Shown here: positions 15,003-31,607 of the stretch, piece by piece | How the letters are laid out: each line of letters begins with the position of its first letter | How positions within the stretch are numbered: the stretch's first letter is position 1 | IMG/VR virus record: IMGVR_UViG_3300008450_000258 | Coordinates: 1-31,607 of that record | Length of the DNA stretch: 31,607 nucleotides | Source: a virus | Strand: one strand, 5' to 3' | Position numbers and translations under genes: made by a program | Notes under the pieces: model-generated | Database searches by the model: none | Told to the model about the DNA's origin: nothing | What the model saw: only the letters and a program-made list of their open reading frames with translations

Positions 15003-15053
15003 TCCTCGCATTGCACGCCTAAGTACTTGATTGTATTATTCCCGCCTGAGGGC

Positions 15054-26821: not shown

Positions 26822-27057
26822 GTAGAGCGGCGGAGTGTGCAGCGGGACTGGGTAAAGAGCAAGCGCAGAGTGGTGCATTTGGGGGTAACCCTAAATCGGT
26901 CCTCACGTAAAACGATTGTTCTAAGCCACTGATTGGATGTGGCAAAGCCGGACCGCCGGCTCTGTTCGCCAGTGTCTACGTACGTACGTTGATGCCTACC
27001 ACCTTCGCGGTATTCGGCCGGTCGCAGCTGACGAACGGCAAGCGCTGGCGGACGAGA

Positions 27058-27074
27058 GTTAGCCACGCTATCAT
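27058..27074. promoter_or_regulatory. rightward operator and -10 element of the cro promoter
   Basis: GTTAGCCACGCTATC (27058-27072) is an imperfect palindrome (TAGC-CAC-GCTA) that agrees with the leftward operator at 10 of 15 positions. It overlaps TATCAT (27069-27074), a five-of-six match to the -10 consensus; a clear -35 is missing. With this -10, transcription would start at or very near the cro ATG at 27083. The rest of the repressor-cro spacer (26822-27057) shows only a run of ACGT units at 26976-26990. Confidence 0.52.
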
Positions 27075-27082
27075 TCGCGGCT

Positions 27083-27661: not shown

Positions 27662-27776
27662 TTGTTGCTGTTGCTGTTTAAGGGCTCGGGCCGGGCTAGC
27701 TACCTGGCCGACAAGGCGGTAATTCCCTCCCTGCCGCCGCCCGTCTTTTTTCCAGGGAGTGAAGAAGGGAACTTAT

Positions 27777-30131
27777 GTGAGCTTTGAAATGAAACGATTC
27801 GGCGCCGATGGCCCATCGTTGCACCGGGCCGGATGGGAAGTCATCCCAATCAAGGAGAAGACCAAGCGCCCGATCGTCAAGGATTGGCAGCACGGCTTTA
27901 CTGACCAGCAGATTGAGCAGTTCGCCCGCAACGGCTACGCCCGCGGGTCGATTGGCATGCTCGCCCGGCGCTTCCCCGGGGTCGACATTGACGTGTCGGA
28001 CAAGGCCTGCGCAGACGCGCTCGAGGCCGCCGTTCTGCGCGTGCTCGGGCCAGCCCCGATCAGGTACGGCAGCGCACCGAAGCGCCTGCTGATGTACCGC
28101 ACCGACGAGCCCTTTACCAAGGTCAAGGTCTTCCTGCAGGCGCCCGACGGGAGCACGAAGGGCGCCGACGGGAAGGACTACGCCGTGGAGTTTCTCGGCG
28201 ACGGGCAGCAGTACGTCATCTATGGCGAGCACCCGGACGGGTTCGAGTACCGGTGGCCAGGCAATGACGGGCCGGGTGAGGTCGACGTGTGGGAGCTCAC
28301 CGATCTGACGCTGGGCGGGGTGACCGGGTTCGTCGAGGCGATCGCGGAGTATCTGCCCGAAGGCTGGTCGGTGCGCCAACAGACTACCGGTAGCGCAGCC
28401 ACGGTGACGGTCTCCGGCGATGCGTTTGAGAACTACCGCCCGCCGCTTGAGGACTGGGACGCAGACCGGATCAGGGCAGACATTGCCCCGCACCTGGACC
28501 TGGGCATGGAGTACGACGATTGGATACGCGTCGGCCAGGCCTTGCATCACCAGTTCGGCGGAGCCGATGAGGGGTTCGAGCTGTGGGACGAGATGTTCCA
28601 GGACTCGCCCAAGTACGGCGGCCGGGACTATGGCTTTGACCGTTGGCGGTCTTTCAAGACGAACCGTGGCAGCCAGCACGTCGTCACGCTGGCCAGCCTG
28701 ATCAAGCAGACCAAGCCTGTACGGCAACTGGCCGTACAAAAGGAGCGCCAGGACGCGGTCGACGATCTCATTTTTGAGATAGAGCTGACCATGCGGCCGC
28801 AGGACCTGCAGGAGCAGGTGGCGGCCAAGGTGGCACACAACGCCGACCTTTCTGACATTGACCGCGAGACCATCGCCGCGGCCATCCAGGGGCGGGCCAA
28901 GGAGCTCGGCATATCCATGCCCATCGGCACGGTGCGCGGCTGGTGCCGCCCCAGGGTGCGTTCGGACTGGCCACACGTGAACGAGGACGGCAACCCGCTG
29001 TGCACTCTTGAGAACCTGCGCATCCTTCTGGCCAGGCTTGGGTACACGGTCCGATACAACGTCATCAAGAAGTCGATCGAGATCCTCATCCCCGGCGCAG
29101 CGTTTACCAGGGACAACCGGGACAACGCCGCCATCGCGCACGTCTACAGCGAGTGCGAGATCGTGCGCATGCCTACCAAGCACGTGGCGCAGTACCTCAT
29201 CACGATCGCCGATGAGAATCAGTACAACCCGGTGCTGACCTGGATCGAGTCGAAGAAGTGGGACGGCGTGTCGCGGTTGGCCGCCTTCTGCGACACGGTG
29301 CGGTCTGAGTCGCCGATGAAGGACCGATTGATCAGGAAGTGGCTCATCCAGTGCGTGGCCGCGGCCGCTTCGCCCGATGGCATCGCGAACCAGGGGATAT
29401 TGACCTTCGTCGGTCCGCAGAACATCGGAAAGACGACCTGGTTCCAGCGGCTGGCGCCGGCCGAGCTCGATGCGATCTTCACCGGCCTGACCCTGGACCT
29501 GAAGTCCAAGGACTCGATCTTTGTGGGCGTGTCGCATTGGATCGTGGAGCTGGGCGAGGTCGACGCGACGATGCGGAAGTCAGACATCAGCGCGCTGAAG
29601 TCATTCATCACCCAGCCCATGGACAAGATCCGCCGCCCCTACGCGGCCACGGAATCCCAGTTTGGGCGCCGGACGGCGTTTGGTGCCAGCGTTAATGACG
29701 AGGTTTACCTGCACGACCCGACGGGGAACCGCCGCTTCTGGTCGATCCTGGTCGAGGGCTTTGCCTTGGACCACGAGGTCGACATGCAGCAGCTGTGGGC
29801 CGAGGTGCTGCACCTGTGGCGGGCCGGGGAGCGGTGGTTCCTGTCGAAGGAAGAGGTCGGCGAGCTGAACGCACACAACGAGGACTTCACGGTGGTCGAC
29901 CCGGTGGAGGAGCGACTTGCGAGTGGGTTCGGGTGGGGCCCGGAGGTGGCGAGTTGGGAATGGGTGACGGCGACCGAGGCGCTGGTCCGGGTAGGGGTGA
30001 AAGACCCTTCGCGGGCAGCGACGATCACGGCGGGCAGGGCATTACGAAAATTGAACGGCGGGCAGAGAAGAAAGAGCAATGGGAAGGTGCTGCTCGCTGT
30101 GCCAGGGGATTTTGAAGATTTTCTAGGGTAA
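27777..30131 (+). CDS. VapE-type primase-helicase (prim-pol, PriCT and VirE domains)
   Basis: A 784-residue replication protein. The N-terminal part (about 10-180) resembles a bifunctional primase/polymerase: WEVIPIKEKTKRPIVKDW, then GVDIDVSD with the metal-binding Asp70 and Asp72, and RYGSAPKRLL. A PriCT-like segment follows (YDDWIRVGQALHHQFGG...FDRWRSF). The C-terminal helicase domain of the virulence-associated E family has Walker A GPQNIGKTT (Gly546-Lys552-Thr553), IVELGEVDATMRKSDISALKSFIT and NRRFWSI. It should prime and unwind DNA at the phage origin, working with the family A polymerase. I chose GTG at 27777 because AGGGA lies six bases upstream; GTG at 27759 and ATG at 27789 are alternatives. 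Candidate origin repeats begin 20 bases after its stop. Confidence 0.9.
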   Translation: MSFEMKRFGADGPSLHRAGWEVIPIKEKTKRPIVKDWQHGFTDQQIEQFARNGYARGSIGMLARRFPGVDIDVSDKACADALEAAVLRVLGPAPIRYGSAPKRLLMYRTDEPFTKVKVFLQAPDGSTKGADGKDYAVEFLGDGQQYVIYGEHPDGFEYRWPGNDGPGEVDVWELTDLTLGGVTGFVEAIAEYLPEGWSVRQQTTGSAATVTVSGDAFENYRPPLEDWDADRIRADIAPHLDLGMEYDDWIRVGQALHHQFGGADEGFELWDEMFQDSPKYGGRDYGFDRWRSFKTNRGSQHVVTLASLIKQTKPVRQLAVQKERQDAVDDLIFEIELTMRPQDLQEQVAAKVAHNADLSDIDRETIAAAIQGRAKELGISMPIGTVRGWCRPRVRSDWPHVNEDGNPLCTLENLRILLARLGYTVRYNVIKKSIEILIPGAAFTRDNRDNAAIAHVYSECEIVRMPTKHVAQYLITIADENQYNPVLTWIESKKWDGVSRLAAFCDTVRSESPMKDRLIRKWLIQCVAAAASPDGIANQGILTFVGPQNIGKTTWFQRLAPAELDAIFTGLTLDLKSKDSIFVGVSHWIVELGEVDATMRKSDISALKSFITQPMDKIRRPYAATESQFGRRTAFGASVNDEVYLHDPTGNRRFWSILVEGFALDHEVDMQQLWAEVLHLWRAGERWFLSKEEVGELNAHNEDFTVVDPVEERLASGFGWGPEVASWEWVTATEALVRVGVKDPSRAATITAGRALRKLNGGQRRKSNGKVLLAVPGDFEDFLG

Positions 30132-30150
30132 AGGGCAAAGGGAGGGGTTG

Positions 30151-30386
30151 TATTACCCTGACCTATTGCCCTGAGATAAGTCCTTGATTCCTCTTCCTAA
30201 AGAACCATAGGGTAATAGAGGGTAATAGATTGCTAATACATTAAGAGGAAAATGATGGGTAGAAGAGAAGAAGAGAAGAAGAGGGGAAGAATACATATAC
30301 CCCTTTACCCAGTTATAGGTATAGAAGTTCAATGCCCTGATCACCCTATTACCCTGTCGAGGGTATTGCCCTGGGGTATTGCACTG
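30151..30386. repeat. iteron-like repeats, candidate replication origin
   Basis: A 10-bp unit TATTRCCCTG occurs at 30151, 30164, 30347 and 30364, as TATTGCACTG at 30377 and as CAATGCCCTG at 30330. On the other strand, two tandem units (T/G)AGGGTAATA lie at 30208-30217 and 30218-30227. Pairs at 30151/30164 and 30364/30377 have the same 13-bp step. Between the two groups are AT-rich stretches and a 31-base all-purine run (30261-30291). The 269-bp region has no gene on either strand that I can support. Iterons, an easily opened stretch and an adjacent primase-helicase fit a phage origin. Confidence 0.62.
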
Positions 30387-30400
30387 GTCGGGGGTGACGC

Positions 30401-30694
30401 ATGAGCGAGGCCCTGGTCGAGAAGCATTTGGTCCGTCGGGTGGAGGACCGAGGGGGCAGGGCGTTTAAGTGGATCAGCCCGGGCACTGCCGGGGTCATGG
30501 ATAGGTTGGTGCTGATGCCGGTACCGCCGGAGCACCGGGCGATCGTGAACCAGTACGTGAAGCTGGTGGAGGTCAAGGACAAGAACCAGAAGACCAGGCC
30601 GCTGCAGAACCGGGTGGCGAATTGGATCAAGGCACTTGGCTTTGAGGTGCGGGTGGTCGACAGCAAGGAGCAGATCGAGGAGGTCTTGCGTTGA
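30401..30694 (+). CDS. VRR-NUC domain nuclease
   Basis: A 97-residue stand-alone VRR-NUC protein of the PD-(D/E)XK group. Visible residues are Glu7 in the first helix, Gly31-x-x-Asp34-Arg, VEVKDK with Glu57 and Lys59, and Gln69 before the last helices. The family cuts branched or structured DNA (as in FAN1), and phages usually carry it between VapE and an SNF2 or DEAD helicase, exactly as here. It ends overlapping the helicase start by four bases (TTGA), so both are probably made together. Confidence 0.92.
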   Translation: MSEALVEKHLVRRVEDRGGRAFKWISPGTAGVMDRLVLMPVPPEHRAIVNQYVKLVEVKDKNQKTRPLQNRVANWIKALGFEVRVVDSKEQIEEVLR

Positions 30695-31607
30695 AGGGGC
30701 TCGCCGACTTCCGGCCCTACCAGGCGCAGGCGCTGGACTTCTGCAGGCGTACACCAAGGGGCTACCTGGCAGCAAAGGCAGGAGCAGGAAAGACGGCTGT
30801 CGCATTGGCGTACATGGGCGAGCTGCTTTTCGATTCCTTCGAGGCGAGGCGGGTTCTGGTGGTGGCGCCGAAGCGGGTGGTGGCGCAGTGGCCCAGGGAA
30901 GCTAGGAAATGGGCTTTTGGCGGGCTTCTGAGGTTTTCCCTATACCTGGGCCCCAGGGAGGAGAGACGAGAGGCACTGGCGGCCGATACGGAGGTCTTGG
31001 TTTGTAGCTTTGAGTTCTTCCCGGAGCTGGTGAAGGAGATACGCCTGGCCGACTGGCCGTTTGACCTCGTGGTGTTCGATGAGGCGAGCCGGCTAAGGAA
31101 CGGCGGCCGCCGCGGCAGCGTGACGTGGAAGGCCATGAACGCGATCAGCGCGAAGACCCAGGCCCGGATTCTGTTGATGAGCGGTTCCCCCAGACCTGGG
31201 ACAGCGCACGAGCTGTATGCGCCGGTTTTTCTGTTGGACCAGGGCGCGAGGCTGGGGCGGACGCTAGGGGGCTTCCGAGCGGGTTACCTGGAGCCGGCGA
31301 AGAGCAACCGGCACACCGGGCAGGTCTACAGCTGGAAGCTGCGAGCCGGGATGGAGGCGGCGCTGTATTCCCGGGTGGCCGACCTGTACTTCGCGGTGTC
31401 GCCAGACCTTGGGTTGGAATCGGTGGTGGTTGACCGGTACGTGGGGCTGCCTGCTTCTGTGGAGCAGGCCTGCCTGGACTTACAGGCGAATCAGGTGCTG
31501 GACCTGGACGAGCTGGAGCTCACGGCACCGAGCGCGGGCACGGTATCGGGGAAGCTGCACCAGATGTGCCAGGGGGCGGTCTTCGACGACTACGGGTCGG
31601 TGGTGGA
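30691..31607 (+). CDS. SNF2-type superfamily 2 helicase (partial, runs off the window)
   Basis: The first 305 codons of a helicase, open at the window end. Motifs in order: the N-terminal FRPYQAQALDF (Q-like motif), Walker A KAGAGKTAVAL (Gly33-Lys34-Thr35), VVAPKRVVAQW (motif Ia), DLVVFDEAS (Asp130-Glu131-Ala-Ser, Walker B) and LLMSGSPRPG (164-168, motif III). GTAHELYAPVFLLDQG is the SNF2-like continuation. The second RecA-like domain lies beyond the window. The start is the TTG that overlaps the VRR-NUC stop; no ATG lies before the first motif. It is expected to remodel replication or recombination intermediates with the adjacent nuclease. Confidence 0.9.
   Translation, partial: MKGLADFRPYQAQALDFCRRTPRGYLAAKAGAGKTAVALAYMGELLFDSFEARRVLVVAPKRVVAQWPREARKWAFGGLLRFSLYLGPREERREALAADTEVLVCSFEFFPELVKEIRLADWPFDLVVFDEASRLRNGGRRGSVTWKAMNAISAKTQARILLMSGSPRPGTAHELYAPVFLLDQGARLGRTLGGFRAGYLEPAKSNRHTGQVYSWKLRAGMEAALYSRVADLYFAVSPDLGLESVVVDRYVGLPASVEQACLDLQANQVLDLDELELTAPSAGTVSGKLHQMCQGAVFDDYGSVV

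Follow-up and report, generated by a model that had tools for sequence, protein, structure and literature searches.

A conserved iteron cluster downstream of vapE as a probable phage replication origin, with the VapE winged helix as its predicted reader

The C-terminal domain of SaPI Rep recognises an iteron origin located directly downstream of its own gene (PMC7581432). Cch2 of SCCmec is a helicase of the self-loading type that uses its C-terminal domain to bind direct repeats situated past its own gene, in the intergenic region (PMC7581432). In P4, a single protein, alpha, binds the origin repeats by its winged helix, unwinds, and primes (PMC4234260). The origin of pRN1 lies downstream of the replication gene, and it is a stem-loop, not iterons, that was shown there; the same paper, in which phage BIP-1 was also used, suggested that proteins combining Prim-Pol, SF3, and winged-helix parts assemble at stem-loops (PMC4234260). 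Many phages and satellites encode VapE proteins without an annotated place of action.

The window analyzed here is a 31,607-nucleotide virus fragment (IMG/VR record IMGVR_UViG_3300008450_000258, positions 1 to 31,607), which ends inside a helicase gene following a VRR-NUC gene. The spacer between vapE (ending at 30131) and the VRR-NUC gene (starting at 30401) is 269 bp long (30132-30400), with a GC content of 45% vs 62% for the window. Judging from its sequence, from the protein model, and from the analogy with described systems, this spacer is very probably the replication origin of the phage, bound by the winged helix of VapE itself. The features are as follows.

27759-30131, plus strand: VapE-type primase-helicase, 790 aa, proposed initiator (Pfam PF09250, PF08707, PF05272)
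29901-30104, plus strand: winged-helix coding part, about residues 715-782, proposed iteron reader (H-E-H-H-E-E order, two models)
30125-30140, minus strand: two partial iterons, AGGGTAAAG (30125-30133, over the vapE stop codon) and AGGGCAAAG (30132-30140) (from the sequence)
30151-30160, plus strand: iteron 1, TATTACCCTG, left block (motif scan)
30164-30173, plus strand: iteron 2, TATTGCCCTG, left block (motif scan)
30177-30189, minus strand: second conserved box, TAAGTCCTTGATT, matching the IHF consensus WATCAANNNNTTR perfectly
30208-30217, minus strand: iteron 3, TATTACCCTA, central tandem pair, kept at about +79/+88 in relatives (motif scan)
30218-30227, minus strand: iteron 4, TATTACCCTC, central tandem pair (motif scan)
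30228-30329, no strand: AT-rich, purine-biased gap from the central pair to the right block, candidate unwinding element (base composition)
30330-30339, plus strand: iteron 5, CAATGCCCTG, right block, 2 mismatches (motif scan)
30347-30356, plus strand: iteron 6, TATTACCCTG, right block (motif scan)
30364-30373, plus strand: iteron 7, TATTGCCCTG, right block (motif scan)
30377-30386, plus strand: iteron 8, TATTGCACTG, right block (motif scan)
30401-30694, plus strand: VRR-NUC-type nuclease, 97 aa (PHROG endonuclease, 2.6e-21)
30691-31605, plus strand: SNF2/DEAD-type helicase, cut by the window end (Pfam PF00176, PF00270)

The original prediction of at least eight TATTRCCCTG-like units, direct and inverted, was confirmed: the spacer holds eight non-overlapping units with ≤2 mismatches (shuffle maximum 4), seven with ≤1 mismatch (shuffle maximum 2), and four exact copies (shuffle maximum 1), and each of these counts was equalled by 0/1000 dinucleotide shuffles of 30132-30400. 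A test free of any motif agreed, in that the best 9-mer occurs seven times in the spacer (shuffle maximum 4) and the spacer alone exceeds five best-9-mer copies among 523 sliding 269-bp pieces of the window. No exact copy was found outside the spacer, either in the window, where all four lie inside it, or in a near-identical 59,867-bp contig. The repeat geometry is also as had been described, with 13-bp steps at 30151/30164 and 30364/30377 and, at 30208/30218, an exact 10-bp tandem pair opposite in orientation to the other units. The left units (30151 and 30164) and the right units (30330, 30347, 30364, and 30377) point one way and the central pair is reversed, giving a layout of left block, central inverted tandem pair, AT-rich gap, and right block. 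The GC content of the 100-bp piece starting at 30231 is about 37%, and in 16 relatives the segment from +100 to +175 averages 70% AT, vs 54% for +0 to +60 and +175 to +235. A purine-only tract, AGAAGAGAAGAAGAGAAGAAGAGGGGAAGAA, occupies 30261-30291 inside the gap.

This layout is conserved. Eighty viral loci were gathered with a VapE helicase profile. Sufficient sequence was available for 30 close relatives: in 26 of them the best 9-mer of the post-vapE spacer beats all 40 shuffles, and the remaining four (L020-L022 and L037) only tie with the best shuffle. Units recur at about -8 (the partial unit over the vapE stop codon, which is kept), +9, +20, and +33, followed by the opposite pair and, after the AT-rich gap, by right-block units at about +180 to +205; a VRR-NUC relative follows the spacer in the 16 close relatives with sequence there. 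The comparative check attached to the proposal of an origin, namely that the repeats be found in the syntenic spacer of close relatives, was thus passed, with the same layout. The GC skew check proposed at the same time was consistent with an origin and uninformative: four long contigs have positive peaks around vapE and the following genes, with the cumulative minimum several kb off or elsewhere, and the skew, being confounded with gene strand, was given no weight as evidence.

Clusters also lie directly after vapE in VapE phages or satellites of Paenibacillus, Staphylococcus, Streptococcus, and Rhodobacter (phage RcIroh), and in several prophage loci of bacterial genomes. Among cultured phages, Mica, Persinger, ECO1230-10, Alexa, and AH2 each carry their own cluster within non-coding DNA; that of Mica (L012, 8042-8281), Persinger (L013, 7289-7543), and ECO1230-10 (L015, 7263-7524) is found 2-3 kb past the primase gene, ahead of the lysis genes. 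No clear non-coding cluster was found in Mano, FoX1, and phiWae15 within the stretch searched, nor in the Stenotrophomonas prophage loci (L106-L108, L110, L111, L113, and L114) within 3.8 kb after the vapE relative. These loci, the four ties with shuffles, and the clusters located at a distance from vapE weigh against the reading of the spacer as a VapE-bound origin. The strongest repeat of PPpW-3 (L017, 6011-6191) lies within a gene, as a tandem array of sixteen units of 12 bp (GACGCAGCC...).

The iteron motif varies among lineages, while it is uniform inside each spacer. The window and many other relatives have AGGGTAATA, and other forms were seen in L024/L025 (AGTGCATTA), L040 (GGGGTAACT), L052 (AGGGTCATG), L055/L064/L066 together with cultured phage Alexa (AGTGCAACC), and L086/L093 (AGGGACACT). 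Such concerted change of all copies points to a factor acting in trans.

VapE is the favoured candidate for this factor. Its domain order is Prim-Pol, PriCT_2, VapE-like helicase, and C-terminal winged helix, the helicase core being of the AAA+/SF3 type according to the Pfam VapE domain and the model. An AlphaFold model of residues 403-790, covering the helicase and the C-terminus (pLDDT 90), ends in the winged helix, and by far the closest PDB entry to this model is 7PDS (Z 26.3, rmsd 4.6, 376 residues), which is PriRep1 with dsDNA, a molecule named 'Similar to D. nodosus vapE', followed by NrS-1 (Z 14.2) and the SaPI5 primase-helicase (Z 11.8). In a PDB sequence search with VapE, 7PDS was the sole match. 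A fold search for naming with the winged helix only returned just generic winged-helix proteins (Z ≤5.1) and was dropped.

The divergence of the iteron motif between loci was compared with the divergence of protein parts for 37 non-redundant loci. With motifs oriented by hand and Mantel p-values that are optimistic for sequences related by shared ancestry, iteron divergence correlated with winged-helix divergence at r 0.66 and with that of the helicase core at r 0.48; the partial correlation was 0.52 (p about 0.0005) for the winged helix given the helicase, vs 0.04 (p 0.3, not significant) for the helicase given the winged helix. The strongest signal for any 20-residue stretch comes from the wing together with the last part of helix 3 (r 0.71, partial 0.57). 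Of 300 random sets of more variable columns taken elsewhere than in the winged helix, none matched its correlation, either for the whole set or for subsets, and the link survives without ambiguous motifs, inside the close clade, and outside it. VRR-NUC, encoded on the opposite side of the spacer, had no significant link to the iterons once the winged helix was allowed for (r 0.23, p 0.11). Residue-to-base mutual information was also tried and rejected, as the sequences were too few and the top pairs mixed winged-helix and core residues. We therefore propose, on this indirect evidence of co-variation, that the C-terminal winged helix of VapE is the predicted iteron reader. Because the iteron sequence tracks the winged helix specifically, VapE itself is more likely to be the binder than a new protein; the original prediction had named VapE or another early protein, possibly a new one, and it is the first part that is favoured.

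By analogy with SaPI Rep and Cch2 (PMC7581432), we infer a path from binding to melting and priming. Copies of VapE would attach to the 10-bp iterons by way of the C-terminal winged helix and form helicase rings, on the left block and on the right block, to either side of the central inverted pair. The rings would open the AT-rich gap, where the fused primase would start synthesis, to be extended by the phage family A DNA polymerase.

Other functions of the repeats have to be weighed against this putative origin. The repeats might be operators through which a repressor, a Cro-like protein, or VapE controls the downstream nuclease and helicase genes, given their position ahead of the VRR-NUC and helicase genes and the presence of CI-like and Cro-like genes near the spacer. 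Promoter and terminator scans found nothing, however, the sigma-70-like promoter scan covering 29900-30600; the divergent regulator intergenic region (26879-27082) contains no match with ≤2 mismatches; quite different genes follow the cluster in other phages; and the motif tracks the VapE winged helix. We consider operators unlikely.

It is also conceivable that the spacer is an origin at which a separate phage or host protein, such as another HTH protein or DnaA, binds the iterons and VapE is merely recruited. The O protein of lambda is a separate initiator of this kind. RepA of the PLE satellite (PMC7145576) is a further precedent. The co-variation, however, is specific to the winged helix and does not extend to the rest of VapE, the C-terminus of VapE is confidently modelled as a winged helix, and the DnaA box TTWTNCACA occurs in 0 of 16 spacers, so that we regard a separate binder as quite unlikely.

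The NrS-1 primase-polymerase recognises an 8-nt sequence that occurs twice in its genome (PMC7102993), and the C-terminal region of NrS-1 is among the fold matches of VapE. The repeats could similarly be primase start sites on a single-stranded template and not double-stranded binding sites. In L006, L007, L008, and L009, the helicase and winged helix are 62-66% identical to those of the window, but their N-terminal primase parts could not be aligned with it, and L006/L008 gave no match to a Pfam primase catalytic domain. The primase part appears to have been exchanged in these four loci. Against start sites, the same iteron family is retained alongside different N-terminal parts (Prim-Pol in the window vs those of L006/L008). 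Given also that the motif tracks the winged helix and that 8-10 clustered copies exceed the need of one start site, priming sites are very unlikely. Action of the spacer through a large stem-loop, as proposed for Prim-Pol/SF3/winged-helix proteins with pRN1 and phage BIP-1 (PMC4234260), is the least probable of all, for although the spacer folds as DNA somewhat better than shuffles (z -2.2), it forms several small hairpins, a large (about 100-nt) pRN1-type stem-loop after the replication gene was not found in that fold, the iterons are mostly direct repeats, and what is conserved is their copies and spacing.

Beside the iterons of the predicted VapE-bound origin, the second box (TAAGTCCTTGATT) sits between the left iterons and the central pair. 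IHF-consensus sites number 26 in 75 post-vapE spacers, vs 1.1 expected from shuffles and 6/1164 in upstream 300-bp pieces, and nearly all of the 26 share one position and orientation. The only other strict match in the window is at 15020-15032. A similar CCTTG box, AANNCCTTG, was found in 10/14 spacers of Firmicutes phages (0.6 expected) and in 5/5 spacers of the AH2/RcIroh group (0.2 expected); in Mano-like spacers it was found in 1/29, and the looser form AANNNNTTGAT in 12/29 (1.6 expected). To our knowledge, IHF is not known in Firmicutes, and because the similar box is present in their phages, IHF may not be the reader of the box. Single-linkage clustering of the N-terminal primase parts merged types and was not used for the second box. 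It is possible, although we hold the scheme as a whole to be rather doubtful, that VapE phages of Proteobacteria and Firmicutes follow one origin plan, in which the VapE winged helix would read lineage-specific iterons, a small number of residues in helix 3 and the wing being enough to predict its specificity, and in which a conserved portion of the initiator or of the primase, not IHF, would read a slowly changing box (AANNCCTTGAT / YAANNNNTTGATW) beside the iterons.

If these spacers are origins, sequence alone would be enough to predict the origin of hundreds of phage genomes, and the naturally occurring matched pairs of iterons and winged helices would make initiator specificity directly testable. 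The earlier remark that VapE phages have no well-described iteron was partly right: no paper linking VapE with iterons and a replication origin turned up in a literature search that covered few subscription papers and so does not imply absence, but the PriRep1 match and the described iteron origins of SaPI Rep and Cch2 (PMC7581432) show that the kind is known. The novelty lies in how widely such clusters are spread among VapE phages, in the co-variation of motif and winged helix, and in the second box.

The best explanation, by analogy, is that the spacer and VapE belong with the SaPI-type initiator helicases having downstream iteron origins. Multiple short repeats stand directly after the helicase gene (eight units, kept in relatives), an AT-rich region lies between the iteron blocks (about 70% AT in 16 relatives), and PriRep1 (7PDS) is the best structural match of the VapE model. 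Unlike the SaPI origin, which was compared by its description, the present cluster belongs to a genome of the tailed-phage type with an initiator fused to Prim-Pol, its repeat sequence is different, and its iterons run in both orientations, with an inverted tandem pair at the centre. The putative origin of SCCmec Cch2 differs in having only three 5-nt iterons and a separate primase and in not being that of a phage, while P4 alpha and its ori, likened here by description, differ in that the P4 primase is of the Toprim type. Burkholderia phage AH2 (Casjensviridae) likewise has a Prim-Pol gene followed by a spacer with at least ten AGGTCCGAA units on both strands, but in Pfam its helicase part is matched by DUF5906 instead of by the VapE model, and the motif is different. 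The replication proteins ORF904 of pRN1 and that of BIP-1 resemble VapE in combining Prim-Pol, an SF3-type helicase, and a winged helix. Because the present spacer has small hairpins only and the conserved features are the iterons, stem-loop assembly as a rule for this class (PMC4234260) is called into question. In Bordetella phage BIP-1 itself (L099), two direct TTTGCCTCG units and two inverted copies are located about 450-560 bp after the gene, with an AT-rich centre, and these repeats, which were not discussed in that paper, offer an alternative to the stem-loop origin proposed there.
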